A stretch of 34,715 nt of DNA from Candidatus Hydrogenedentota bacterium (GTDB taxonomy: Bacteria > Hydrogenedentota > Hydrogenedentia > Hydrogenedentales > SLHB01), in the NCBI GenBank assembly GCA_019695095.1, contig JAIBAQ010000051.1, positions 1 to 34,715 on the forward strand, written 5' to 3'. Positions 13,246 to 34,715 of this stretch are shown here, one piece after another. The notes under the pieces were generated by a model, which searched no databases, was not told the origin of the DNA, and saw only the letters and a program-made list of their open reading frames with translations. The position numbers were made by a program, and so were the translations under genes. Each line of letters begins with the position of its first letter. The first letter of the stretch is position 1.

Positions 13246-14153
13246 AGCAGCCGCAATGCCTGCTCCACGTGCGCCTCGGTAAACGAGCTACCCGTCACCG
13301 GCAACCAGTGAATACGATCGTCGGCCCGGAACCACGTCAACTGCCGCTTGGCGAATCGTCGCGTCTGCTGCTTGGTGGTCTCTATCGCTTCGGCCAACGT
13401 CTGTTTACCGTCTATATACGCTGCCATCTCCCGAAATCCTACCGATCGCAGACGTTCAACCTCTGAGCGGTATCCGCGTTCCAGGAGCGCCCGCACTTCC
13501 TCCACAAACCCCGCGGCCACCATTGCGTCGACACGCTCGTTGATTCGCCGGTAGAGCTCCTCGCGCGGAAAATCCAGTGCGACCAACACCGCAGAATAGG
13601 CGTGTGTTCGCTCACGGTGCTCGCGATGAAGCCGAGACATGGGCTGCCCCGTCAGCCTGTACACCTCCAGGGCCCGCACGATCCGCCGCAGATCGCCTGG
13701 AAGTATTATCGCGGCATACTCCGGGTCCACCGATTGCAGTTGTTCGTAGAGCGGCGCTCCCGACTCGGCCTCCCGATGCAACTCTTCTCGAATCGTATCG
13801 TCTTTCGGAGGTCCATCGAAAAGGCCGTCAATCAACGCATTGACATACAAGCCGGACCCACCGGCCACGACGGCAACCTTCCCACGCGCATTCAGCGTAT
13901 CGACCACCATCCGCGCCTGCCGCTGGAATTCGCCCGCAGAGAATTCGCAATCCGGTTCGAGCACTCCCACGAAATGGTGCTTCACCGCAGCAAGCTGCTC
14001 GGCGGTGGGGGCCGCTGTCCCGATTTCCATTCCGCGATACACCTGCATCGAATCGGCGGAGATAATCTCGGTGTTGAGGCGCCGGGCAACTTCAATCGCC
14101 AACGCCGTCTTGCCCGACCCGGTAGGTCCCACGACTGCCAGAATGGAAGTCAC
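13218..14153 (-). CDS. miaA: tRNA dimethylallyltransferase
   Basis: A 311-aa enzyme that adds a dimethylallyl group to A37 of tRNAs reading codons that begin with U. P-loop GPTGSGKT at residues 9-16, the substrate motif ADSMQVYRGMEIGTAAP at about 34-50, GGSGLYVNALIDGL and the C-terminal KRQLTWFR are all typical. The frame extends upstream to 14444, but the family start fits GTG 14153, which overlaps the mutL TGA (GTGA). The upstream extension is shadow sequence of mutL. It is co-transcribed with mutL; this pair is also linked in E. coli. Confidence 0.95.
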   Translation of the reverse strand: MTSILAVVGPTGSGKTALAIEVARRLNTEIISADSMQVYRGMEIGTAAPTAEQLAAVKHHFVGVLEPDCEFSAGEFQRQARMVVDTLNARGKVAVVAGGSGLYVNALIDGLFDGPPKDDTIREELHREAESGAPLYEQLQSVDPEYAAIILPGDLRRIVRALEVYRLTGQPMSRLHREHRERTHAYSAVLVALDFPREELYRRINERVDAMVAAGFVEEVRALLERGYRSEVERLRSVGFREMAAYIDGKQTLAEAIETTKQQTRRFAKRQLTWFRADDRIHWLPVTGSSFTEAHVEQALRLLQDESASAR

Positions 14154-16033
14154 TGCCGTCTCCGGAAGCTCTTCTCCATCTGCATTTGGGTCAATTCGGT
14201 GATGATTGGCCTTCCGTGGGGACACGTGTAGGGGGGGCGCATCCGCCGGAACCCTTCCAGCAGTTCTTTGCGTTCCTGCGGAGACAGCCGATCGCCTGCT
14301 TTCACGGAGCCTCGGCAGGCCTCCACGGTCAAGCGGAGCGCGTCCGAGATAAAGTCCTCGCGCGAGAACAAGTCCCCCTGCGCCAACTGGTCCAGCACGC
14401 GGAAGATTGCATCGGCAATCTTGGACTCCTGATACAGGTGACAAACCGCCGTCACCTGGAATGTCGTGCCGCCAAACGGCTCGATTTCGATCCCGATACG
14501 CGAGAAAAGCGGCAGATTCGTTTCGAGCAGCCGCGCATGCGACGGGGGAAGCTCCACCAGAATGGGCACGATCAACTGCTGCGCCTGGTAATCGTGGTCG
14601 GCAAGATCAGCGCGCAGACTGTCGTAGGTTAACCGCTCATGCAACGCGTGCTGGTCGATGATCAACAACCGGTCTTCTTCCGGCACCAGCAAGTACGTGT
14701 CGAAGAGTTGCATCGGAGCATCGTCCATGTGGCCGATAGGACGGTAGACGGCCATTGGCGCAACCCGATCCACGTGGTCCGACGTTGCCGGACCCGAACC
14801 CGCGAATTCGGTTTGCACCGGTTCTGTGTAGGCTTCAAGCGGATTCGCGGTCTCCACAAAACGTGCGGCTAGGATGGGCGGAGTCTCAAACATGGGCGGT
14901 ATAGAAGCACTTGCCGCTTCCGTACCGGCGAGCCTTGGGCTTGTCTCGCTTATGAGTGTCCGCATGACCGGTTCTTCGCGCACTGGAAACGACGGCGCGG
15001 GAGTCACCAGCGTCTCGCGTCCAACTTGGATGCGTTCCATACGGCGGCGGACTACGTCACGAATGGCTTCGCGCACCACGCGCTCCTCGCGGAAACGCAC
15101 TTCGCGCTTCGCGGGGTGGATGTTCACATCCACGTAGCGCGGATGCGACTCGACCATGACGATGCCCACCGGATACCGTCCAATCGTCAGCAGTCCGCGG
15201 TAGCCGTCTTCCAAGCCATACTGCAGCGAACGATTCACGATAGGACGCCGATTCAAGAAGAAGAACTGATGCGAACGCTGCGACCGCGTGAGTGCGGGCG
15301 TTCCCACCAACCCTCGGAATCGAAGTCCAGCCTGCTCTTCATCCAAGTCGATCAAATCGTTCAGGAAGTTGAGTCCCCAGATAAGGGCGACCCGTTCGCG
15401 CAGCGTCGCGCGCTCCGGGATGTCGAGCAGCGTCTTTTCGTTGTGCAACAGATGAAATCCGACGCCCACTTCCGCGAGCGCGTGCCGTTGCACGATATCG
15501 ATGCACAGACTCAGTTCGGTGGTGATCCCCTTCAGGAATTTCGCGCGTACGGGTGTGTTGAAGTAGAGCCGGTTCACGCTCACTCGCGTTCCCACGGGCG
15601 CGGCCACGTGGTCTACGTCGCGAAGGATTCCCCCTTCCACGCGCACCCGCGTCGCGGACTCATCGCGTTCGCGGCGCGTGACCATCTCGAATCGTGAAAC
15701 GGCCGCGATACTCGCCAGGGCCTCTCCACGGAACCCAAGCGTCAGAATGTTGTCCAGGTCCTCGGCTTTGCGGATCTTGCTTGTCGCGTGCCGTTCAATC
15801 GCCAGCAACGCATCCTGCTCGGACATTCCATGACCGTTATCGATGACCTCGATCGTCCTGCGCCCCGCAGCCACAAGCCGCACCTGAATCCGCGTCGCGC
15901 GGGCGTCCAGCGCGTTCTCAACAAGCTCTTTGACAACAGACGCGGGGCGTTCGACCACCTCGCCGGCTGCAATCTTGTTGGCCACGTTCTCGGGCAGTAC
16001 ACGGACTGCGGGTATGCTTGTTTTCGCGCTCAT
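14150..16033 (-). CDS. mutL: DNA mismatch repair protein MutL
   Basis: A 627-aa GHKL ATPase that links mismatch recognition by MutS to strand incision. N-terminal motifs: KELVENALDA (residues 35-44, catalytic E36), DNGHGM (65-70) and TLGFRGEAL (98-106). The C-terminal domain carries the endonuclease motifs DQHALHERLTYD, ACRGS and CPHGRP, so it is the nicking type found in bacteria without MutH. In the first motif the usual final Glu is Asp. The ATG at 16033 is preferred over the GTG at 16036; the site just upstream is a weak TTAGGTG. A repeat copy ends 4-5 nt before it. Followed by miaA. Confidence 0.95.
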   Translation of the reverse strand: MSAKTSIPAVRVLPENVANKIAAGEVVERPASVVKELVENALDARATRIQVRLVAAGRRTIEVIDNGHGMSEQDALLAIERHATSKIRKAEDLDNILTLGFRGEALASIAAVSRFEMVTRRERDESATRVRVEGGILRDVDHVAAPVGTRVSVNRLYFNTPVRAKFLKGITTELSLCIDIVQRHALAEVGVGFHLLHNEKTLLDIPERATLRERVALIWGLNFLNDLIDLDEEQAGLRFRGLVGTPALTRSQRSHQFFFLNRRPIVNRSLQYGLEDGYRGLLTIGRYPVGIVMVESHPRYVDVNIHPAKREVRFREERVVREAIRDVVRRRMERIQVGRETLVTPAPSFPVREEPVMRTLISETSPRLAGTEAASASIPPMFETPPILAARFVETANPLEAYTEPVQTEFAGSGPATSDHVDRVAPMAVYRPIGHMDDAPMQLFDTYLLVPEEDRLLIIDQHALHERLTYDSLRADLADHDYQAQQLIVPILVELPPSHARLLETNLPLFSRIGIEIEPFGGTTFQVTAVCHLYQESKIADAIFRVLDQLAQGDLFSREDFISDALRLTVEACRGSVKAGDRLSPQERKELLEGFRRMRPPYTCPHGRPIITELTQMQMEKSFRRRQ

Positions 16034-16037
16034 CACC

Positions 16038-16236
16038 TAACCCGGATTTCTCACGAACACACTTGAACCTCTCTCCTAACCAGAGTGTTCGCGAGACTTG
16101 CGGCCAAAATCAAAGCGACTCTCCGAAGACAGAGTGTGTTCGCGAGAAATCCTCATGGCATAACCTCAACGTCTTGCACGTGAGCAATTTGCGTCGGCGC
16201 TCAATCGCGCCTGTGCAAATTGCGGACTAATTCCCG
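16038..16236 (+). repeat. Dispersed intergenic repeat, copy 3 (full length)
   Basis: The core at 16044-16152 has the same length (109 bp) and terminal inverted repeats (GGATTTCTCACGAACACACT; AGTGTGTTCGCGAGAAATCC) as copy 2. The linker shares CTCATGGCATA. The hairpin at 16184-16223 (GCAATTTGCGTCGGCGC with its imperfect complement) and the end GCGGACTAATTCCCG are also shared. It occupies nearly the whole 5' leader of mutL, ending 4-5 nt from its start codon, so any mutL promoter lies in or beyond the repeat. Confidence 0.85.
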
Positions 16237-16328
16237 CCGCCATTCTAAAGCAGCCGCTCCGCACCCGCAACCGCCATTTCATCCCTGTGGAGTCCTCTCT
16301 CCCTTGCTCATCTGCGCCCCGAAATAAG

Positions 16329-16365
16329 CGAAGCAGGCCTGACACCCTGAGGCGGGCCTGCTTCG
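16329..16365 (-). terminator. Terminator-like hairpin after lipoprotein LP1
   Basis: A perfect 11-bp stem, CGAAGCAGGCC/GGCCTGCTTCG, 20 bp past the LP1 stop. On the minus strand it is followed by CTTATTTC, an incomplete U-tract, so it may end transcription less efficiently than the hairpins after LP2 and LP6. Confidence 0.55.
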
Positions 16366-16384
16366 AAGTTCAGTGAGGAGTTAG

Positions 16385-16822
16385 CTAGATTTCGAACCGC
16401 ACGTCTCCGTAGATGGTCGAGCAGGCGGGAAGTCTGCGATTCCAGCTTAGACCCTGGTAATAGTCGATACAGACGTTGGTGGTCGTGATTTCGATCCCCT
16501 CATTTACTACGATGAGTTCGTTGTTGACGGCTTCACCGCAGAAGAGGAACTCGTCGACGATGTCAAACACACCCCGTACCATGTACGTACCCGGCGCAAA
16601 CCCTTTGATATCCTCAGACTGCCCGGATACCAGCACTGACGTCAGGTCATTTGGCCCCCATGACAGAGCGCCCTGATTCGCCACATTCACTTCTTTCAAG
16701 TCATACGACGTGAAGTTGTTGATACAGAACTGATACTGAAGCAGATTGCATCCTGCAAATACCGTAGCTACCGCCACGAGTATAACGGCAGCGAGGATTC
16801 CCCAACTGCGTGACCGTCTCAT
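16385..16822 (-). CDS. Tandem paralogous lipoprotein LP1
   Basis: A 145-aa predicted lipoprotein with signal segment and lipobox ending in FAGC, followed by the family start NLLQYQFCINN. Family blocks: SYDLKEVN; SWGPNDL; EDIKGF; GTYMVRGVFDI; ITTTNVCIDY; and the end IYGDVRFEI. Four cysteines follow the lipidated one (QFC, LFC, NVC, PAC). The start is ATG 16822 with AAAGGAG upstream; the frame extends further but without a better site. It is the most divergent in its loops (an inserted SWNRRL before the last Cys). Function unknown; it is probably anchored at a membrane facing the periplasm or cell surface. Confidence 0.85.
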   Translation of the reverse strand: MRRSRSWGILAAVILVAVATVFAGCNLLQYQFCINNFTSYDLKEVNVANQGALSWGPNDLTSVLVSGQSEDIKGFAPGTYMVRGVFDIVDEFLFCGEAVNNELIVVNEGIEITTTNVCIDYYQGLSWNRRLPACSTIYGDVRFEI

Positions 16823-16930
16823 GCCTGATCTCCTTTGATTCGTGCGGGCTTGCTTGACTGGTCTCCTTCCAGTATCGCACCGGAGCGCAGCAAGCTTCGT
16901 CGCTTCCATCAAGAAAAACCAACCCTCGGC

Positions 16931-16968
16931 AAGAAAAAAGCAGGCTCGTCGAGGTTTAACAAGCCTGC
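16931..16968 (-). terminator. Rho-independent terminator after lipoprotein LP2
   Basis: On the minus strand a GCAGGCT/AGCCTGC stem (16962-16968 and 16940-16946) is followed by TTTTTTCTT. It lies 24 bp past the LP2 stop and upstream of LP1, so LP1 needs its own promoter or read-through. Confidence 0.8.
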
Positions 16969-16991
16969 CCCCTATACCAATTACTTCAAGA

Positions 16992-17438
16992 CTAGATTAC
17001 GAATCGGACATCACCGTAAATCAAGGTGCACCCGCCAATAACAACGGCCTTACCCTGCAACAGAGTATCCTCTCTGTAATCGATGCAGACGTTCGTCGTC
17101 GTGATATCGATACCTTCGTTCACGACGATCAATTCATCGTTGATTACATCGTCGCAGAATTCGCTGGAATCAGCGACATCGAAAACTCCGCGAACCATGT
17201 ACGTTCCCGCCGCGAAACCTTTGATGTCCTCCGAGCCGCCAGGCGCAAGAACAGCGCTCAGATCGTTCGCCCCCCAGGAGTCAGCGCCCTGGTTTACAAT
17301 GTTCACGTCCGTGAGGTCAAACGAAGTAAGGTTGTTGATGCAGAACTGGTACTGAAGCAGATTGCACCCTGCCAATACCGTTGCGACCAACACAACGCAC
17401 ACACCCATTGCCAATCCAAACCGACGCACCACTCGCAT
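16992..17438 (-). CDS. Tandem paralogous lipoprotein LP2
   Basis: A 148-aa predicted lipoprotein: MRVVRRFGLAMG leader, lipobox LAGC, then the family pattern NLLQYQFCINNLTSFDL, SWGANDLS, PGGSEDIKGF, YMVRGVFDV, ITTTNVCIDY and IYGDVRFVI. All four mature-domain cysteines are present (QFC, EFC, NVC, GGC). The start is ATG 17438 with AAGGAGA 8 nt upstream; the upstream extension of the frame to 17510 is not needed. Its leader peptide is nearly identical to that of LP3, marking these two as a recent duplication. A TATAAT sits at about 17462, very close to the start. Function unknown. Confidence 0.86.
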   Translation of the reverse strand: MRVVRRFGLAMGVCVVLVATVLAGCNLLQYQFCINNLTSFDLTDVNIVNQGADSWGANDLSAVLAPGGSEDIKGFAAGTYMVRGVFDVADSSEFCDDVINDELIVVNEGIDITTTNVCIDYREDTLLQGKAVVIGGCTLIYGDVRFVI

Positions 17439-17593
17439 TACATGTCTCCTTCTTCCGCTTCTCATTATACGGGTATACAACGCCCCACTATTCGAGACTG
17501 AGCATACCACGTCATGACATACACTACAATCCGCCCCACCCTTAGACGCTCATGTGCGTCAACCCATGCATACTACCTGGTGTGGGGCGACTG

Positions 17594-17610
17594 ACCGGTC
17601 TTCAACCGGT
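17594..17610 (-). terminator. Weak hairpin after lipoprotein LP3
   Basis: ACCGGT-CTTCA-ACCGGT forms a 6-bp stem 14 bp past the LP3 stop. There is no U-tract, so it is at best a weak terminator or mRNA 3'-end structure. Confidence 0.25.
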
Positions 17611-17623
17611 TATTCGCTCGACG

Positions 17624-18067
17624 CTAGATTTCAAACCTGGCTGCGCCATAGATCGACGTGCAGACATCGGCCTTATCTTTGGACACAATGCCTTCGATCT
17701 CACGGTAATCGATACAGATATTCGTCGTCGTGATTTCAAGGCCTTCGTTCACGATGATCAACTCACCATTGATGACTTCGTGGCAGAGATTAGGCTCGCC
17801 CGCGATGTCAAACACGCCGCGAACCATGTACATGCCAGGCGAGAACCCTTTGATATCTTCCGAGCCGCCCGGCTCAATAACACCGGTCAGATCGTTTGAG
17901 CCCCAAGAGTCAGCGCTTTGAGTTGTAATGTTCACTTCCTTGAGGTCATACGGCGTCAAGTTGGTGACGCAGAACTGGTACTGAAGTAAGTTACACCCTG
18001 CCAATACCGTTACAACCAGCACAACGCACATACCCGCCAGCAATCCAAACCGACGCACTACTCGCAT
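17624..18067 (-). CDS. Tandem paralogous lipoprotein LP3
   Basis: A 147-aa predicted lipoprotein. The lipidated Cys is residue 25 (LAGC), and the other four cysteines are at 33 (QFC), 95 (NLC), 118 (NIC) and 136 (DVC). Conserved blocks are as in its paralogues: YDLKEVNI, SWGSNDL, PGGSEDIKGFSPG, YMVRGVFDI, EITTTNICIDY, IYGAARFEI. The start is ATG 18067 with AAGGAG upstream. The pattern of short strands with SWGxNDL and PGGS turns suggests a small beta-sandwich. Function unknown; the intergenic gap of 164 bp to LP4 suggests separate transcription. Confidence 0.86.
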   Translation of the reverse strand: MRVVRRFGLLAGMCVVLVVTVLAGCNLLQYQFCVTNLTPYDLKEVNITTQSADSWGSNDLTGVIEPGGSEDIKGFSPGMYMVRGVFDIAGEPNLCHEVINGELIIVNEGLEITTTNICIDYREIEGIVSKDKADVCTSIYGAARFEI

Positions 18068-18231
18068 TGCATTTCTCCTTTTTCATCTGCTCTACGTATT
18101 GACTCACCATTCTGCACAAAGCGACTGGGAATACTCAGCCTTCCCCTATCGCTCATCGTCCGGGCGCACTCAATCTCGGCAAGCAACTCACGACGGAGTG
18201 CGCCAGCTCAAACGACTTTCAGACTGATGAC

Positions 18232-18666
18232 TCAAATCTCGAACCGCGCGGCGCCGTAGATATCTACACAAACAGTGCTCTTTTTCTCTGGAACTTCTTC
18301 GTCGTAGTCGATGCAGATATTCGTCGTCGTGATCTCCAGACCGTCGTTCACAACGATGAACTCGTTGTTATAGACGTCTTCGCAGACATCCTCCTCATTC
18401 ACGATGTCAAATACGCCTCGCACCATATACATTCCCGGGGAAAAACCCTTGATGTCTACCGAACCGCCCGGCAGGAGCGTGCCAGAGAGATCGTTCGAAC
18501 CCCACGACGGCGCGCCTTGAGCCGCAATGTTCACTTCCTTGAGGTCGAATGACGTAAGGTTGTTGATGCAGAACTGATACTGTAGCAAGTTACATCCGAC
18601 CAATAGCGGCGTAACCGCCCCCATTGCCAGAATCGCCACCAACGCATAACGTGTGAACCTTTTCAT
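18232..18666 (-). CDS. Tandem paralogous lipoprotein LP4
   Basis: A 144-aa predicted lipoprotein: MKRFTRYALVAILAMG leader, lipobox LVGC, NLLQYQFCINNLTSFDL, SWGSNDLSG, PGGSVDIKGFSPG, YMVRGVFDI, ITTTNICIDY, IYGAARFEI. The four mature cysteines (QFC, DVC, NIC, TVC) are kept. The start is ATG 18666 with AAGGAG 7 nt upstream. A strong promoter lies about 90-115 bp upstream. Its C-terminal block is identical to that of LP3 but its leader differs, hinting at exchange between copies. Confidence 0.86.
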   Translation of the reverse strand: MKRFTRYALVAILAMGAVTPLLVGCNLLQYQFCINNLTSFDLKEVNIAAQGAPSWGSNDLSGTLLPGGSVDIKGFSPGMYMVRGVFDIVNEEDVCEDVYNNEFIVVNDGLEITTTNICIDYDEEVPEKKSTVCVDIYGAARFEI

Positions 18667-18753
18667 GGCACTGCTCCTTATGGTCTACGCCACATTCCTC
18701 TCCCGGATACGCTCAGTTGGATAAACGAACACAGATTCCCTACAGCACCTCAG

Positions 18754-18782
18754 ATCTTAGGGAGATCGGCTCAACTTGTCAA
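18754..18782 (-). promoter_or_regulatory. Sigma-70-like promoter of LP4
   Basis: On the minus strand TTGACA (18777-18782), a 17-nt spacer and TAAGAT (18754-18759) lie about 88 bp upstream of LP4. This is a consensus -35 with a good -10. Confidence 0.75.
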
Positions 18783-18836
18783 TTGCTATTCACTCGTTCC
18801 AAACAAGGATTGACTCAACCACGCGGACAGCAGATC

Positions 18837-18887
18837 AGCCCCTCGCATATGACGGAACCCCCCGCAACCAATCGGCTGCGAGGGGCT
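18837..18887 (-). terminator. Terminator-like hairpin after lipoprotein LP5
   Basis: A perfect 11-bp stem, AGCCCCTCGCA/TGCGAGGGGCT, encloses a 29-nt loop, 25 bp past the LP5 stop. There is no U-tract on the minus strand, so the function is uncertain. Confidence 0.4.
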
Positions 18888-18912
18888 CTACCAAAATATC
18901 TGCAATCAGGAC

Positions 18913-19356
18913 TTAAATTTCAAAACGGACTGCGCCATAAATCTCAACGCAATCGCCCGGAGCCTTGACGCCGTTCTGCACCACATACTGCTCGTTGTAG
19001 TCGATACAGACGTTTGTCGTCGTGATGTCGATGTTCGTATTTGTTACGATGTACTCGTCATTGATGACAGGTTCACATACCTGACTGTCGGCCACGTCGA
19101 ACACGCCGCGAACCATGTAGTCACCAGCCGAAAAACCCTTGATGTCTTGCGTCTGTCCAGGTCCAACAATTCCGGTCAAATCGTTCGAACCCCACGATCC
19201 CGCTCCCAGCGCCACAACATTCACCTCAATAAGATCGTAGGAACTCTGATTGTTCACACAAATCTGATAAGTGAGCAGATTGCAGCCCACCATAACCGGA
19301 GCCACAATGCCCACCGCAATGGACATCACAATCGCTGCCGTTTTCCACGTCCTCAT
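18913..19356 (-). CDS. Tandem paralogous lipoprotein LP5
   Basis: A 147-aa predicted lipoprotein: MRTWKTAAIVMSIAVG leader, lipobox MVGC, then NLLTYQICVNNQSSYDL, SWGSNDLTG, PGQTQDIKGFSAG, YMVRGVFDV, DITTTNVCIDY, IYGAVRFEI. All four mature-domain cysteines are present (QIC, QVC, NVC, GDC). It departs from the family in the second block (PGQTQ instead of PGGSE) and has a longer loop before the last Cys. The start is ATG 19356 with AGGAGG 5 nt upstream, and a TATAAT promoter lies about 70 bp upstream. Function unknown. Confidence 0.86.
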   Translation of the reverse strand: MRTWKTAAIVMSIAVGIVAPVMVGCNLLTYQICVNNQSSYDLIEVNVVALGAGSWGSNDLTGIVGPGQTQDIKGFSAGDYMVRGVFDVADSQVCEPVINDEYIVTNTNIDITTTNVCIDYNEQYVVQNGVKAPGDCVEIYGAVRFEI

Positions 19357-19423
19357 AGCCGCCTCCTATTCCTTGCTCTATCGCGTTCTCTAGACTCGAT
19401 ATACCCGTTCCAGCATCGGCACT

Positions 19424-19454
19424 ATTATACTCTCTCGGAGAACACACATTTCAA
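19424..19454 (-). promoter_or_regulatory. Sigma-70-like promoter of LP5
   Basis: On the minus strand a perfect TATAAT (19424-19429) is preceded by TTGAAA (19449-19454) with a long 19-nt spacer. It points to LP5, about 70 bp away. Confidence 0.55.
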
Positions 19455-19493
19455 GATGTCTCCGTCTTTTGGCCGTTTCGACCAATAGAACGT

Positions 19494-19532
19494 AAAAAAA
19501 CCGTCCCTTTTCGCTTACGCTCGAAGGGACGG
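19494..19532 (-). terminator. Rho-independent terminator after lipoprotein LP6
   Basis: On the minus strand a CCGTCCCTT/AAGGGACGG stem (9 bp) is followed by seven Ts (19494-19500). It lies about 30 bp past the LP6 stop and upstream of the LP5 promoter, isolating LP6 as its own transcription unit. Confidence 0.9.
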
Positions 19533-19563
19533 CCAAAGTACTCAGTCTCAGTGACGGGATCCG

Positions 19564-19998
19564 TTAGATGATGTAACGAACGTCGCCGTAAATGAAGGTG
19601 CATTCTTCTTCGGTGTCAACATCTTCGGAATAGTCGATCGCGACATTCGTCGTCGTAACTTCGATACCCGTGTTGTATACAAGGTATTCGTCGTTGTAGA
19701 TCGGTCCGCAGATCTCATCGTCTTCGGCATCGGCTACATCGAATACGCCACGAACCATGTATTCACCAGCCGCGAAACCCTTGATGTCTTCCGAACCACC
19801 AGGCGCAAGAATTGCCGACAGGTCGTTCGAACCCCACGATTGAGCGCCGTCCGCCGTGATGTTGACTTCCATCAGGTCGTACGAGGTCAGGTTGTTGATC
19901 TCGAACTGATACTGAAGAAGATTACAACCAACCATCACGGGCAATGCCACACTTACCAACACGGCCATCACTACAGCGAAGCGTTTCCAATTCGACAT
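19564..19998 (-). CDS. Tandem paralogous lipoprotein LP6 (lacks two cysteines)
   Basis: A 144-aa predicted lipoprotein: MSNWKRFAVVMAVLVS leader, lipobox MVGC, then NLLQYQFEINNLTSYDL, SWGSNDLSA, PGGSEDIKGFAAG, YMVRGVFDVAD, EVTTTNVAIDY, IYGDVRYII. Two of the four family cysteines are replaced (QFC to QFE, NVC to NVA) while the other two remain (EIC, EEC). The start is ATG 19998 with AAGGAGG upstream. It has its own extended -10 promoter and a strong terminator. It is richer in acidic residues than the others. Function unknown. Confidence 0.86.
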   Translation of the reverse strand: MSNWKRFAVVMAVLVSVALPVMVGCNLLQYQFEINNLTSYDLMEVNITADGAQSWGSNDLSAILAPGGSEDIKGFAAGEYMVRGVFDVADAEDDEICGPIYNDEYLVYNTGIEVTTTNVAIDYSEDVDTEEECTFIYGDVRYII

Positions 19999-20439
19999 GT
20001 GCGTTTTCCTCCTTTTGCTGCACCCTACAGACGTTACCCTATAGGCATCGTCCATGTTTCCTCAAAACTATAGCACACCCTTCAGCGTTCAACAAGTCTA
20101 CCACTTTTCACACTTTGCCGCTAGCTCATTCTCCGTCTGCACTCCCCAATTTCGGGCTGGAATCCTCCCCTTCCCAAAATCGGTACCGTACACTCTACAC
20201 TCGAACCACTACGGCGTTACCGATTGACCTTTTCCTACACAACAGGTTGTGCTTAGACGGCTCCACTATACCAGCAGTCCGCTCTAGCCGTCAAGTGAAA
20301 ACATCGGAAACCCACGTAACCCACCATCTGCTCTCTACATAGGCACCTTTGCGGCACATTGTCATCGTTCGGCTCGGCACTGCCCCCTTCTCTTCCGGCA
20401 GTGGCCCGACCCGCAGCAGGGGCATCTCCAATCGACGAA
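19999..20439. other. Intergenic region upstream of LP6
   Basis: No gene is supported. The right part of the LP6 leader and promoter lies at 20000-20095. A GC-rich hairpin, CACTGCC/GGCAGTG (20378-20384 and 20397-20403), lies about 40 bp past the M14 gene stop and could serve as its terminator, though it lacks a U-tract. The stretch 20100-20370 shows nothing recognisable and is poorer in G+C than the genes. Confidence 0.5.
20067..20095 (-). promoter_or_regulatory. Extended -10 sigma-70-like promoter of LP6
   Basis: On the minus strand TTGTTG (20090-20095), a 17-nt spacer and TATAGT (20067-20072), with TG one base upstream of the -10 (TGCTATAGT). It lies about 70 bp upstream of the LP6 start. 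Confidence 0.7.
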
Positions 20440-30127: not shown

Positions 30128-30255
30128 AGGTTACGCACCGCTACAAGAATCAAAGAGTGGGCAATCGCACGCCTTCACTGCAGGCTAATTCGAGTTTCTT
30201 CGCCACGACTGCCACCTTCCGACAGTCTATGTATTCGGATTGGATTCTCTGATTC

Positions 30256-30343
30256 CAAATCCACCATACTTTCCTTCTCCGCCGACGGACTTTGCGCCGG
30301 CGGTATTTGTTGTATGGGCTCGTTTGCCGCAGGAGACCCCCGC
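30256..30343 (+). promoter_or_regulatory. Leader block A before the first sugar-binding protein
   Basis: It contains AATCCACCATACTTTCC, a GC-rich hairpin near CCGCCGACGGACTTTGCGCC, and GCCGCAGGAGACCCCCGC just before the TTG start. Parts of the block recur before the second binding protein (ACCACCATACT at about 31867) and, almost entire, at 33696-33797. Confidence 0.65.
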
Positions 30344-31783
30344 TTGCGTAGAACCTATTTCATTTGGGCTTTAGGTGTGCTTGTTTGTGCCGCCGTGGCC
30401 ATGCTGCTGCGCCCCTCGGAAGCCGGGTCGCCGGAAGAGCGCCAAGCCATCGAAGAAGGCCGCACGATCATTGTGTATTGGGATCGGCACTCCGGTCACG
30501 AGCACGCCATGCGCGCCGAGCTCATCCGGGAGTACAACAACACCCAAGGCAAAACCGACGGTGTTTACGTGCGCGCGTTGCCCATTGGCTTCTTCGCCCT
30601 CATGGAAAAGATGCTCACTTCGATTGCCGGGGGGTCGCCGCCCGACGTCTGCAGTATCGACACCAGCATTCTGATGCAGCTTGCAACCCAGGGGTGCTTC
30701 ACGCCCTTGGGCGAATGGATGAAGACCGTCCCCGCCCTTCAAGAGGACCGGTTTCTGCGCCACACGTGGGAGATGGTCGCCTACGAAGGCTATGACGCCG
30801 CTCATCAGAACTGGGTCGACGACGTGTGGGGAATCCCCTCGACAACGGACTCTTATTGCCTTCTATGGAACAAGGACATCTTTCGCAGGGCTGGCCTTGA
30901 TCCCAATACGCCGCCGAAAACGACACAGGAACTCGAGGAGTTTGCCGCCAAGCTCACCATTCGCAACGGCGCGGAGGTCACTCAGATTGGGTTTATCCCA
31001 TGGTTTCCGTGGGACATTTCCCTGATGTGGGGCGGCATGTTCGGCGGCTCCTATTACGACCCGGAAACCGGACTTGCCACCTGCGGTTCCGACCCGGCCG
31101 TCATCGCGTCGCTCGCTTGGCAAGCCAAGTTCAGCATAGACCCAAACTCGGACAACAACGCGCCATTCGCGGTCGACGCGACCAAGTTTCAGTCGTTCGA
31201 GAAAATGGGCGCGTATCAAAGCGCCAACAACCCCTTCTACGCCGGGAAGGTCGCTATGATCGTGGAGGGTGAATGGCAAGCCACCTTCATCCCCCAATAC
31301 GCAAAGCACCTCGATTGGGGCGTCGCGCCGATTCCGCAACCCGAAGGCGCGCCCCCACGCGCATACGGTCCCGCGTGCGTCTGCGACTCCGTCCCCGCGA
31401 GCGCCAAGCACAAGGAAGAAGCCTTCAAGTTCCTGAAGTGGTTCTACTCGCCGCGCCCTGGTGGCGGTTTCTCTCCCATCAGCGACTACAACTTCGCGAT
31501 TCACAACATCCCATGCATCCGCGAAGAAGCCATGCAGGACCGGTTCATGAAGGACCCCAAATTCAGCGTCTTCGTCAACGAACTCCTCACCAAGCCCGAA
31601 ATCGTCTCTCAACCCAACCTTCCGCAATCGCAGTTCTATCTCGACGAAATCGAACGCGGCCGCGAATTTGTCACCATGCACGAAAAGACCCCCGAGCAGT
31701 CGGCTAAAGACACCGAAACCCGCACAAACGAAGTGCTCGAAGACACCTACCGGCAAATGAAGGTGTTGAAGAAGGCAGATTAG
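30344..31783 (+). CDS. ABC transporter sugar-binding protein (family 1), membrane-anchored, copy 1
   Basis: A 479-aa extracellular solute-binding protein. Residues 5-22 form a signal or anchor helix (FIWALGVLVCAAVAMLL) without a lipobox. Then IIVYWDRHSGHEHAMRAELI and the SBP family 1 pattern: SPPDVCSIDTSILMQLATQG, VWGIPSTTDSYCLLWNKDIF, YAGKVAMIVEGEWQ and AFKFLKWFYSP. The start is TTG 30344 with AGGAG 8 nt upstream, which matches the position of the GTG start of copy 2; the ATG at 30314 lies in leader block A. The permease at the window end is its probable partner. Sugar specificity is not known. Confidence 0.85.
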   Translation: MRRTYFIWALGVLVCAAVAMLLRPSEAGSPEERQAIEEGRTIIVYWDRHSGHEHAMRAELIREYNNTQGKTDGVYVRALPIGFFALMEKMLTSIAGGSPPDVCSIDTSILMQLATQGCFTPLGEWMKTVPALQEDRFLRHTWEMVAYEGYDAAHQNWVDDVWGIPSTTDSYCLLWNKDIFRRAGLDPNTPPKTTQELEEFAAKLTIRNGAEVTQIGFIPWFPWDISLMWGGMFGGSYYDPETGLATCGSDPAVIASLAWQAKFSIDPNSDNNAPFAVDATKFQSFEKMGAYQSANNPFYAGKVAMIVEGEWQATFIPQYAKHLDWGVAPIPQPEGAPPRAYGPACVCDSVPASAKHKEEAFKFLKWFYSPRPGGGFSPISDYNFAIHNIPCIREEAMQDRFMKDPKFSVFVNELLTKPEIVSQPNLPQSQFYLDEIERGREFVTMHEKTPEQSAKDTETRTNEVLEDTYRQMKVLKKAD

Positions 31784-31824
31784 CCCACAAAGCAATCCCA
31801 TAGACTAAATTGGGCTCCTTGGAA

Positions 31825-31849
31825 CCAGTGGGCTCCTTTCGCTCACTGG
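31825..31849 (+). terminator. Hairpin between the two binding-protein genes
   Basis: CCAGTGGGC/GCTCACTGG, a 9-bp stem with one G-U pair and a 7-nt loop, lies 42 bp past the first binding-protein stop. With no U-tract it is more likely an mRNA processing or stability element that separates the expression of the two paralogues than a full terminator. Confidence 0.4.
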
Positions 31850-31917
31850 AATCTGTCCTCCCAGAACCACCATACTCATTGTCCGCACAAGTATTGCCGT
31901 TCCGGGGGGACTTTCAC

Positions 31918-33354
31918 GTGCGAAAGACCTATGCCATTTGGGTGCTGGGTGCCATGCTCTGTCTGGGCATCATCGCTATTCTGCGCCCATCTGAAGCCGG
32001 CTCCCCGGAGGAACGCGCCGCACTCAATCAAGGCCGCACGGTAATCGTGTACTGGGATCGTCACTACGGACACGAGCACGCCATGCGCGCGAAGCTTATC
32101 GAGGAGTACAACACCACCCAAGGCATCGCCGACGGCGTCTATGTGCGCGCGCTCCCCATCGGCAACTCCGCGATTATGGAGAAACTGCTCACCGCCGTAG
32201 CCAGCGGTTCTCCGCCAGATGCGTGCAGCATCGACTCAGGCATTCTCATGCAGTTGGCCACCCAGGGGTGTTTCACGTCGCTCAGCGACTACGCAGACTC
32301 CATTCCCGCGCTGAAACAGGACCGCTTTCTTCCACACACCTGGGCCATGGTCTCTTTTGAGGGCTACAACTCCAATCGCCGCGCCTGGGTCGATGGCGTC
32401 TGGGGAATCCCCACCACCACCGAGGCCTACTGCCTGCTGTGGAACAAGGACGCCTTTCGCCGCGCTGGACTCGACCCCGAGCGTCCTCCAAGAACCATCC
32501 GCGAACTGGAGGAATACGCCGCCAGACTCACTATCCGCGAGGGTTCCGAGACTAAGCAGGTCGGTTTCGTGCCGTGGTTCCCGTGGGACATGACCCTCAT
32601 GTGGGGCGGCCTGTTTGGCGGCACGTGGTACGACTCCAAGACCGGATATGCGACCTGCGCGAGTGACTCCAGTATCGTGGCGTCGCTCGCGTGGCAAGGC
32701 ACATTCAGCGAGACCCCCAACTCCGCCACCAATGCCCCCTACGCCCTCGATTCCAGCAAGTTCCAGTCCTTCGAGAAGATGGGCGCGTACCAAAGCGCCA
32801 ACAACCCCTTCTACGCGGGCAAAGTCGCCATGATCATCGAGGGTGAATGGCAAGTCACCTTCATCGAGAAATACGCCAGCCACCTCGATTGGGGCGTCGC
32901 GCCCATTCCTCAACCCGAAGACGCCCCGCCACGCGCCTACGGTCCCGCGTGCATCTGCGACGCCGTGCCCTCAAGCGCCAAACACAAAGACGAAGCCTTC
33001 AAGTTCCTGCGTTGGTTCTACGCGCCACGCTCAGAAACAGCCACATCGCCCTGCAGCGATTTCAACTACACCATCCACAACATCCCCTGCACCCGCGAGG
33101 AGGCCCTGCAAGACCGCTTCATGAAAGACCCCAAATTCAGCGTCTTCGTTAACGAACTCCTCACCAAACCCGAAATCGTCACCCACCCGCTGCTCCCCCA
33201 GCCTCAACTCTTCCTCGACGAAATCGAACGCGCCCGCGAATTCGTCATCCTCCACGAAAAGTCCCCCGAACAAGCCGCCCAGGAAATCGAGACCCGAACC
33301 AACGAAGTGCTCGGCGATACATACAGGCAAATGAAGAAGTTGACGCCAGAATAG
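31918..33354 (+). CDS. ABC transporter sugar-binding protein (family 1), membrane-anchored, copy 2
   Basis: A 478-aa paralogue of the preceding gene. Identity by eye is high along its whole length, including YQSANNPFYAGKVAMI and ELLTKPEIV. It has an anchor helix (YAIWVLGAMLCLGIIAIL) and no lipobox. The start GTG 31918 has GGGGGG 8 nt upstream and aligns with the start of copy 1; the frame opens earlier (31810) but only in the leader. Differences cluster in loops, compatible with different ligands. The stop TAG is followed by TCCGG, the sequence seen at other repeat-linked stops. Confidence 0.85.
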   Translation: MRKTYAIWVLGAMLCLGIIAILRPSEAGSPEERAALNQGRTVIVYWDRHYGHEHAMRAKLIEEYNTTQGIADGVYVRALPIGNSAIMEKLLTAVASGSPPDACSIDSGILMQLATQGCFTSLSDYADSIPALKQDRFLPHTWAMVSFEGYNSNRRAWVDGVWGIPTTTEAYCLLWNKDAFRRAGLDPERPPRTIRELEEYAARLTIREGSETKQVGFVPWFPWDMTLMWGGLFGGTWYDSKTGYATCASDSSIVASLAWQGTFSETPNSATNAPYALDSSKFQSFEKMGAYQSANNPFYAGKVAMIIEGEWQVTFIEKYASHLDWGVAPIPQPEDAPPRAYGPACICDAVPSSAKHKDEAFKFLRWFYAPRSETATSPCSDFNYTIHNIPCTREEALQDRFMKDPKFSVFVNELLTKPEIVTHPLLPQPQLFLDEIERAREFVILHEKSPEQAAQEIETRTNEVLGDTYRQMKKLTPE

Positions 33355-33413
33355 TCCGGTGTTTTTGTCGGGAGGATCTTGTCCTTTAGTGTTGAACGTG
33401 CGACAATAATGGC

Positions 33414-33629
33414 ATGTCCATACCAGCCCTAGATATTAACCGCCTCACGATAGACGAACGTCTACGCCTTATCGAAGACCTTTGGGAGAGCCTCGTATCG
33501 CGCCCAGACAGTATTCCCCTGACAGACTGCCAACGCAAAGAGTTGGATCGCCGTTTAGACAAGATGAATTGCGATGGTTCACCAGGGACTCCTTGGGAAG
33601 AGGTCATTTCCAACATCGCGCGAGATTAG
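33414..33629 (+). CDS. Orphan addiction-module antitoxin component (TIGR02574/PF09720-like)
   Basis: A 71-aa protein with the family pattern LTIDERLRLIEDLWESLV near the N-terminus, then a short helix (CQRKELDRRLDKM) and SPGTPWEEVISNI. Such antitoxins pair with ParE/RelE-type toxins, usually encoded immediately downstream. No toxin frame is present after 33629, so it is an orphan or a relic of a lost pair. The start is ATG 33414. Confidence 0.8.
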   Translation: MSIPALDINRLTIDERLRLIEDLWESLVSRPDSIPLTDCQRKELDRRLDKMNCDGSPGTPWEEVISNIARD

Positions 33630-33695
33630 TCTCGTCTCTGCCAAGTCTTCAATCACTGCGTCACCCACTCTGAATCAAATCCCGCGCTGGAATAT

Positions 33696-33830
33696 CCCCC
33701 CCGGAATCCACCATACTTTCCCATCTCCGCCGGCGGGCATTCCGCCGGCGTGATTCATTGCACGGATGAATGTGCCGCAGGAGACCCCCGCTTGCGAAGT
33801 GCTTATCGGATAAAGAGATTGGGCGCCAGT
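33696..33830 (+). pseudogene. Decayed third copy of the binding-protein leader and start
   Basis: The sequence repeats leader block A almost intact (AATCCACCATACTTTCC; GCCGCAGGAGACCCCCGC). It then continues with CTTGCGAAGTGCTTATCGG in place of the copy 1 start CTTGCGTAGAACC. The encoded residues LRSAYRIKRLG align with LRRTYFIWALG of the intact gene, after which similarity ends. It is a truncated third copy. Confidence 0.65.
33728..33750. repeat. Perfect 9-bp GC-rich hairpin in leader block C
   Basis: CGCCGGCGG/CCGCCGGCG with a 5-nt loop. Leader block A has a less perfect version of it. Confidence 0.6.
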
Positions 33831-33834
33831 GTGT

Positions 33835-33854
33835 GGCAGGCATCCTTGCCTGCC
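33835..33854. repeat. Perfect 8-bp hairpin (REP-like)
   Basis: GGCAGGCA-TCCT-TGCCTGCC. A short GC-rich palindrome of the type that recurs as REP sequence in other genomes. Confidence 0.55.
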
Positions 33855-33935
33855 GCCCAAATGCCATTTGCAGCTAGTGTAGTGAATCGTATTTGGGACA
33901 ACATATTGGAAAACCCAAGGAAAAGCTCAAAGCAG

Positions 33936-34010
33936 CGGAAAACAGGGACTGACACAAGCGTAGCGAAGCGGAGACGTGTCTGTCCCTGCTTTCCGTGTCC
34001 CTGCTTTCCG
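33936..34010. repeat. Long imperfect hairpin with tandem 15-bp repeat
   Basis: CGGAAAACAGGGACTGACAC (33936-33955) pairs at 18 of 20 positions with GTGTCTGTCCCTGCTTTCCG (33976-33995). The unit TGTCCCTGCTTTCCG is then repeated in tandem (33981-33995 and 33996-34010). It resembles REP elements mobilised by REP-associated transposases; no transposase is in the window. Confidence 0.7.
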
Positions 34011-34093
34011 AAAAACGCAGGCTGCGATGCCTTTGACATGCGGAAACCGACGCAGCTTCCGCGCCCGCGTGAGTCTGCCAGGAGCGCCGCGCT

Positions 34094-34715
34094 ATGACCA
34101 AGACGGAACGGCGCGACTTTCGGAACGGCGTACTTTTCGCCTCGCCCTACATTGTCGGCTTCTTAATGATCAGTCTTTACCCGCTGGCGATGACCGCCAT
34201 CTACAGCCTCAGCGATTACGACGCCATCAAACCCATGGCGTGGGTCGGCATGGGCAACTACACGCGCCTGCTTGAAGATGACCGGTTTTGGATTGCTCTG
34301 AAGAATACACTCTACTTCACCATTGCGTCTGTCCCTGCGCGCCTTGCGCTGGCGCTCGTACTAGCCATGCTGCTGAGCCTCAAAATACGCGGGCAAGCGG
34401 TCTACCGCACGATCTTCTTCCTGCCTACTATCGTGCCGCTGGTGGTGTCGGCCGTTTTGTGGATGTGGGTGTTCAACCCGCAGAGTGGCTTGCTGAACGG
34501 CGCGCTGCAGCAAATCGGAATCTCCGACCCGCCGGGATGGCTCGCCGATCGCGCATGGGCGAAGCCCGCCCTGGTTCTGATGAGCCTATGGGGTATCGGA
34601 GGCTCCATGGTGATCTTCCTCGCGGGTCTGGCGGATGTCCCCCAGTCCTTATATGAAGTCGCCGATTTGGACGGTGCAGGCCCCCTTACCAAGTTTCGCC
34701 ATGTGACCATCCCCA
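34094..34715 (+). CDS. ABC transporter permease (MalF/UgpA type), 3' truncated by the window end
   Basis: At least 207 aa of a carbohydrate ABC permease. Membrane segments: GVLFASPYIVGFLMISLYP; FWIALKNTLYFTIASVPARL with LALALVLAMLL; RTIFFLPTIVPLVVSAVLWM; ALVLMSLWGIGGSMVIFLAG. The EAA loop EVADLDGAGPLTKFRHVTIP marks the coupling site to the ATPase. The start is ATG 34094 with AGGAG about 9 nt upstream. The frame runs off the end without a stop. It most likely works with the two binding proteins upstream; the second permease should follow. Confidence 0.9.
   Translation, partial: MTKTERRDFRNGVLFASPYIVGFLMISLYPLAMTAIYSLSDYDAIKPMAWVGMGNYTRLLEDDRFWIALKNTLYFTIASVPARLALALVLAMLLSLKIRGQAVYRTIFFLPTIVPLVVSAVLWMWVFNPQSGLLNGALQQIGISDPPGWLADRAWAKPALVLMSLWGIGGSMVIFLAGLADVPQSLYEVADLDGAGPLTKFRHVTIP

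Follow-up and report, generated by a model that had tools for sequence, protein, structure and literature searches.

Paired loss of two conserved cysteines in one member of a tandem lipoprotein array from a Hydrogenedentota bacterium suggests the loss of a disulfide bond

LP6, one of six tandem lipoprotein genes in a 34,715-nucleotide stretch of DNA from a Candidatus Hydrogenedentota bacterium (the whole stretch that was analysed, referred to here as the window), lacks two of the four cysteines that LP1-LP5 have in common. With a probability of about 0.6, we favour a combined reading in which the LPs are exported beta-sandwich lipoproteins with the ancestral pairs C33-C118 and C95-C133, LP6 has lost the first of these bonds, a clamp between two strands, and a relative from genome G014 has swapped one partner of that clamp for another. 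Cysteines are numbered as in LP4 (C33, C95, C118 and C133), and the lipobox Cys is not counted among the mature cysteines. The data show the Cys pattern, its derived state in LP6 by parsimony, the even Cys counts and the predicted strand order and fold resemblance; we infer the bonds themselves, the placement of positions 33, 118 and 71 within bonding distance and oxidation outside the cytoplasm.

Table 1. Coordinates of the lipoprotein genes, of the cysteine sites in LP6 and of the adjoining gene in the window.
Feature	Position	Strand	Remarks
mutL-like gene	14150..16036	-	directly downstream of the LP array
LP1	16385..16822	-	mature Cys 33, 95, 118, 134
LP2	16992..17429	-	mature Cys 30, 92, 115, 134 (start 3 residues shorter)
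LP3	17624..18067	-	mature Cys 33, 95, 118, 136
LP4	18232..18666	-	mature Cys 33, 95, 118, 133; sequence used for AlphaFold2 model
LP5	18913..19356	-	mature Cys 33, 94, 117, 136
LP6	19564..19998	-	144 aa; mature Cys 97, 133 only; Glu33 and Ala120 at lost Cys sites
LP6 codon TGC, Cys133, kept	19600..19602	-	at LP4 C133
LP6 codon GCG, Ala120	19639..19641	-	at LP4 C118
LP6 codon TGC, Cys97, kept	19708..19710	-	at LP4 C95
LP6 codon GAG, Glu33	19900..19902	-	at LP4 C33
LP6 lipobox Cys25	19924..19926	-	lipid-anchor site

LP1-LP6 are six intact open reading frames arranged in tandem on the minus strand; they encode lipoproteins of 144-147 amino acids that can be aligned unambiguously and share 58-70% pairwise identity past the lipobox (Table 1). 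All 13 close members of the family have a Gly-Cys past a hydrophobic stretch, its Cys being residue 22-25, and the lipobox Cys is present in each of the six LPs, which bears out the statement of the initial annotation that LP6 has retained its lipid-anchored Cys. By this signature LP1-LP6 are bacterial lipoproteins and predicted substrates of signal peptidase II. The signal peptides of LP2 and LP3 (17429-17355 and 18067-17993, minus strand) are closely alike and carry an additional Cys within the hydrophobic stretch, which may reflect a recent duplication or conversion of the 5' ends of these two genes. Downstream of LP1-LP6 lie two genes that we take to be mutL-like and miaA-like, and the order LP array, mutL, miaA, with the array directly upstream, is common to the host genome (G000; 6.77 Mb, 95.3% complete) and to genomes G009 and G021, the mutL sequences of which are 71-73% identical. 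The tandem array upstream of mutL-miaA is kept across two genera, with 6, 3 and 3 copies (window 14150-20000; locus L045, 5485-9860; locus L046, 4381-8786), the lipoproteins themselves being only ~30% identical between genera. Scans for promoters and terminators returned nothing beyond what shuffled sequence yields. In Pfam, no family scored above cut-off for LP1-LP6 or for one protein each of G014 and G021, and in NCBIfam none did so for LP4, LP6 and one protein each of loci L007 and L008. Weak Pfam matches of the LPs to FAM163 and Mid2, which lie mainly over the signal peptide and below cut-off, were rejected.

That four cysteines are common to LP1-LP5, and that the first and third of these are gone in LP6 with the second and fourth kept, had been noted in the initial annotation and was confirmed by alignment and by the codons, as were the positions (33, 95, 118 and 136 in LP3). 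The GAG and GCG codons of LP6 each lie three base changes away from TGC or TGT and hence are not single-base errors. LP6 alters five of the 54 columns that are invariant in LP1-LP5 (C to E, C to A, I to L, I to V and F to Y); the three changes at non-Cys columns are all conservative, and the probability that at least two of the four Cys columns fall among the five changed columns is P = 0.039. Using as reference the 11 canonical four-Cys members, i.e. LP1-LP5 and six genes of G009 and G021, we found that LP6 keeps 15 of the 17 invariant columns and that both changed columns are Cys, a result expected for 6 of 136 column pairs (0.044). By these counts, the loss of cysteines in LP6 is specific and modestly exceeds chance.

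A profile search of 68 genomes of the host's order identified close relatives of the LPs in G009 (3 copies), G021 (3 copies) and G014 (1 copy) and weaker relatives in eight further genomes (G003, G010, G013, G026, G031, G038, G057 and G067). A scan of genome contigs with LP4 alone gave no relative, and with the LP alignment as the query it gave one record, that of G021. In a wider search, in which up to the best 10 candidates were scored per genome, matches with E <= 1e-5 occurred in 10 of 386 genomes, all in the host's order; the LPs, which matched no curated family above cut-off, were thus seen in one order only among the 386 genomes searched. All six genes of G009 and G021 carry four Cys, and in the outgroup genes C33 is present in 7/7 and C118 in 6/7, so that the state of LP6 is derived by parsimony. 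Few forks of the gene tree are well supported, with 2 of its 10 inner branches starred. The number of mature cysteines is even in all 13 close members (4, 4, 4, 4, 4 and 2 in the window, 4 in G014 and 4 in each of the six G009 and G021 genes), and the Cys pattern has changed only twice among them, in LP6 and in G014; with so few independent changes, the even counts are suggestive support for pairing. Distant homologues (L010-L014 and L019) were excluded from these counts, as their alignment past strand E is too poor to score position 118; they have no Cys at position 33, and L011 has several at other sites. L015, L016, L020, L021 and further weak loci of the 68-genome search were left out of the alignment. 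Two of these distant homologues, both from one genus (L015, 1366-2049, minus strand; L020, 1168-1839, plus strand), have an extra domain ahead of the LP-like domain, which in L020 matches PKD and in L015 is similar by eye.

Structure prediction, which the initial annotation had proposed as a check on the pairing, gave confident AlphaFold2 models for LP4 and for the G014 protein, both with the strand order of transthyretin. For LP4 (13 rows) the mean pLDDT was 85.4, with most blocks of the domain above 90; three models reached 83.6-85.4 and two were poor (63.3 and 55.8). For the G014 protein (19 rows) the pLDDT was 86.6 and all five models were alike (85.7-86.6). Strands in the LP4 model span residues 30-36, 41-49, 69-75, 78-87, 102-112, 116-124 and 134-143, and in both models they can be labelled A, B, D (with some doubt), E, F, G and H, E being joined to F through a short helix. 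VIA-align superposed residues 30..144 of LP4 on residues 10..124 of transthyretin with Z 7.8 (3.1 A, 99 residues) and residues 28..127 of the G014 protein on the same segment with Z 8.7 (2.9 A, 97 residues). The strand order, the EF helix and the fit across the whole domain agree with a transthyretin-like fold; strand C is missing as a long strand, and a Z near 8 can reflect a common sandwich arrangement, which may be all that the likeness amounts to. As in transthyretin (prealbumin), the strands predicted for the LPs run in the order A-B-(D)-E-helix-F-G-H along almost the entire domain, but the LPs share only ~9-12% identity with it and are lipid-anchored, and transthyretin is not known to have a disulfide at the LP Cys sites. 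Searching 177635 PDB sequences with the 13-row profile yielded no match at E up to 10, so that membership of the transthyretin family finds no support at the level of sequence. The luminal domain of HGSNAT, the extracellular domain of PepT1/PepT2, the AlgF domains and the NMR structure 2mca matched LP4 or the G014 protein equally well or better in VIA (Z 8.4 to 10.1, ~2.3 to 3.5 A) and have no sequence kinship to the LPs; since several unrelated sandwich domains tie in this way, the structural match speaks for the strand order and does not point to any family or function. In Foldseek, 2mca was the only match with E < 0.001, and among viral structures there was no match with E < 0.001. Membrane-binding domains of pore-forming toxins, which also tie structurally with the LPs, were rejected as a likeness of shape only.

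The strand order allows the four cysteines to be placed relative to each other. With the alignment ends as anchors, C33 would fall on Met13 and C118 on Thr106 of transthyretin; C133 of LP4 maps to the GH loop and C95 just after the EF helix. In transthyretin, Glu54 lies on strand D and His88 in the EF loop. Published descriptions of that protein give its two sheets as DAGH and CBEF (PMC7139926), place Met13, Lys15, Thr106 and Ala108 in pocket P1 with Glu54 at its outer edge (PMC3672920) and describe a hydrogen-bond network of His88 with the GH loop (Ser112 and Pro113; PMC3795539). Across the LPs, positions 32/34 of strand A and 117/119 of strand G are always hydrophobic and positions 31/35 and 116/120 mostly polar, and from this alternation C33 and C118 are expected to point outward. 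The topology thus supports a model in which strands A and G lie side by side and carry C33 and C118, respectively, both exposed on the outer side, and the other two cysteines would be on loops that contact each other in transthyretin, C95 on EF and C133 on GH; with this placement, the natural way to join them is C33 to C118 and C95 to C133. According to this model, the ancestor of the close LP family would most likely have carried both disulfides, C33-C118 as an external clamp across the sheet that fastens strand A, just past the lipid anchor, to strand G, and C95-C133 as a bridge between the EF and GH loops. In LP6 the entire clamp would then be gone and the bridge between the loops retained, leaving it with one disulfide as compared to two. 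The initial annotation had already proposed C33 and C118 as one pair and C95 and C133 as the other; fold topology, the strand-face pattern and the outgroups speak for this proposal, and the G014 protein, which has no C118, speaks against it if taken literally.

In the G014 protein (L007:295-675, minus strand) cysteines are found at residues 31 (corresponding to position 33), 69, 96 and 119 (before strand H), and an Ala occupies the position of C118. A homologue that had lost only one of C33 and C118 had been named in advance as evidence against their pairing, and to the letter the G014 protein is such a homologue; it has also gained a Cys on the segment of strand D, Cys69, at the site where the LPs have Asp71, and its count is still four, so that the change looks like the replacement of a partner. 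In LP4, position 71 faces the same way as positions 33 and 118, as judged from the hydropathy pattern of the LPs. Cys31 and Cys69 of the G014 protein would thus probably represent a partner swap, in which C33 was kept, the Cys of strand G lost and a Cys on the strand-D segment gained, the clamp now tying strand A to its neighbour on the opposite side. Against the combined reading, Cys96 lies in strand F in the AlphaFold2 model, not in the EF loop, and its MAFFT column differs from that of C95. The G014 gene is not beside mutL in its contig (L044; G014:C667, 295-3094); it adjoins genes that are 52-60% identical to window 30128-34714, including two tandem SBP_bac_1 solute-binding-protein genes.

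Whether the host makes disulfides outside the cytoplasm, as the initial annotation had supposed, was examined at the level of the genome, and here the supposition found no support. The host genome gave no match to VKOR (PF07884), DSBA (PF01323), DsbB (PF02600) or Thioredoxin_4 (PF13462), all of which were recovered in positive-control genomes, and thus gives no support to the LPs as Dsb-type substrates; with the genome 95.3% complete, an oxidase of these known families is likely to be truly absent. VKOR, DSBA and Thioredoxin_4 were also absent from G009 and G021 (the DsbB scan covered the host genome only). Within the order, VKOR was found in 8/68 genomes, Thioredoxin_4 in 7/68 and DSBA in 7/68 (6 above cut-off), and among the four genomes with close LPs only G014 has both a VKOR and a DsbA-like domain, which it encodes in a single frame (422 amino acids). 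VKOR and Thioredoxin_4 (DsbA-like) share one frame of 391-436 amino acids, a natural VKOR-DsbA fusion, in seven of the eight VKOR genomes (G001:C187, G016:C314, G022:C76, G002:C96, G019:C8, G023:C694 and G014:C394), and most other genomes of the order have neither. All four genomes that contain close LP members encode DsbD_TM, indicating that some envelope thiol chemistry exists. A majority of extracytoplasmic proteins with an even number of cysteines is described as a sign of Dsb-dependence (PMC5403849). We therefore counted cysteines in exported proteins with 1-8 mature Cys, using a simple gene caller of our own and signal-peptide rules and setting apart CxxCH heme proteins and pilin-like starts. 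The host had 30 even and 52 odd proteins (800 kb in 40 stretches of 20 kb; odd excess p = 0.02) and G009 had 16 even and 22 odd (400 kb in 20 stretches of 20 kb). The same script returned 14 even and 7 odd for E. coli (250 kb), which is the expected direction with too few proteins for significance (p = 0.19), and 7 even and 8 odd for the VKOR-positive G002 (188 kb), where it thus gives no contrast. In the host, Cys makes up 1.10% of exported and 1.46% of cytoplasmic proteins, so that exported proteins are fairly Cys-rich. Oxidative folding of the LPs is thus unproven, and the host gives it no general support.

These data bear on several other explanations. For any fixed pairing, two of the six possible double Cys losses remove a true pair, and the LP6 event alone is consequently weak evidence as to which cysteines pair and cannot separate the pairings confidently. 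The cysteines might thus be joined as C33-C95 and C118-C133 or as C33-C133 and C95-C118, or bonds might link two lipoproteins of the array; we consider this quite improbable, as a transthyretin-like topology puts C33 and C118 on neighbouring strands and the other two cysteines together at one end, on loops, and the G014 protein, in which C118 is gone with C96 and C119 kept, fits C95-C133 as the untouched pair. More serious is the possibility, which we regard as a substantial one without preferring it, that Cys69 of the G014 protein is an unrelated change and not the new partner of Cys31, in a family without strict pairing: the match of G014 segment 67-73 to the D strand and the start of the DE loop of transthyretin derives from end offsets only, and the G014 branch is long (1.31). 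The partner swap is favoured over this explanation by the orientation of position 71 and by the DAGH sheet of transthyretin, in which strand A is flanked by D on the side away from G.

The cysteines could also be conserved but unbonded in the cell, as reduced thiols or in a metal or redox role, LP6 having drifted at two of them independently. The lack of matches to the four oxidase families, the missing even-Cys excess among the 82 exported host proteins with 1-8 Cys and the retention of one of the two positions in G014 are all in line with this idea. We nevertheless judge it unlikely, given the even counts in 13/13 close members, losses in LP6 that required three base changes apiece in a protein otherwise intact at 15 family-invariant positions, and the DsbD_TM domains of all four host genomes, which suggest thiol-disulfide exchange in the envelope; moreover, C33/C118 and C95/C133 would lie at two separate sites of the fold and appear ill-suited to a single four-Cys metal site. 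A bolder extension of the combined reading of two ancestral disulfides is that pressure on the family has maintained a disulfide clamp on the first strand, with parity kept through the pair loss in LP6 and a swap from strand G to strand D in G014. As most of these bacteria are without any known disulfide oxidase, the copies in the host, G009 and G021 would then be oxidised by an unrecognised or uncatalysed route; this proposal is speculative, and we would call it doubtful.

Changes of this type have been described elsewhere. In nematode ZP modules, a whole Cys pair has been replaced by Lys and Ala in one subfamily, and another lost one Cys, the kept partner of which is well placed to bind a new Cys on a neighbouring strand (PMC7456536). 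Like the proposed LP clamp, the disulfide of the ZP-N domain joins strand A to strand G (PMC7456536); in contrast to the LPs, the ZP modules are eukaryotic, belong to another domain family and were assessed by homology models with distances. Paired loss and partner replacement are thus known from these modules, inferring pairs from joint loss is not new, and the change in LP6 is of a known kind. A literature search for Hydrogenedentes or Hydrogenedentota together with disulfide and lipoprotein found no paper. The LP array offers a small, testable case of disulfide loss within a set of tandem paralogues, with an outgroup that has seemingly rewired the same bond. Most of the Hydrogenedentota genomes examined are without known disulfide oxidases, yet some encode lipoproteins that look disulfide-bonded, and how, or whether, these bacteria oxidise their envelope proteins becomes a concrete question.
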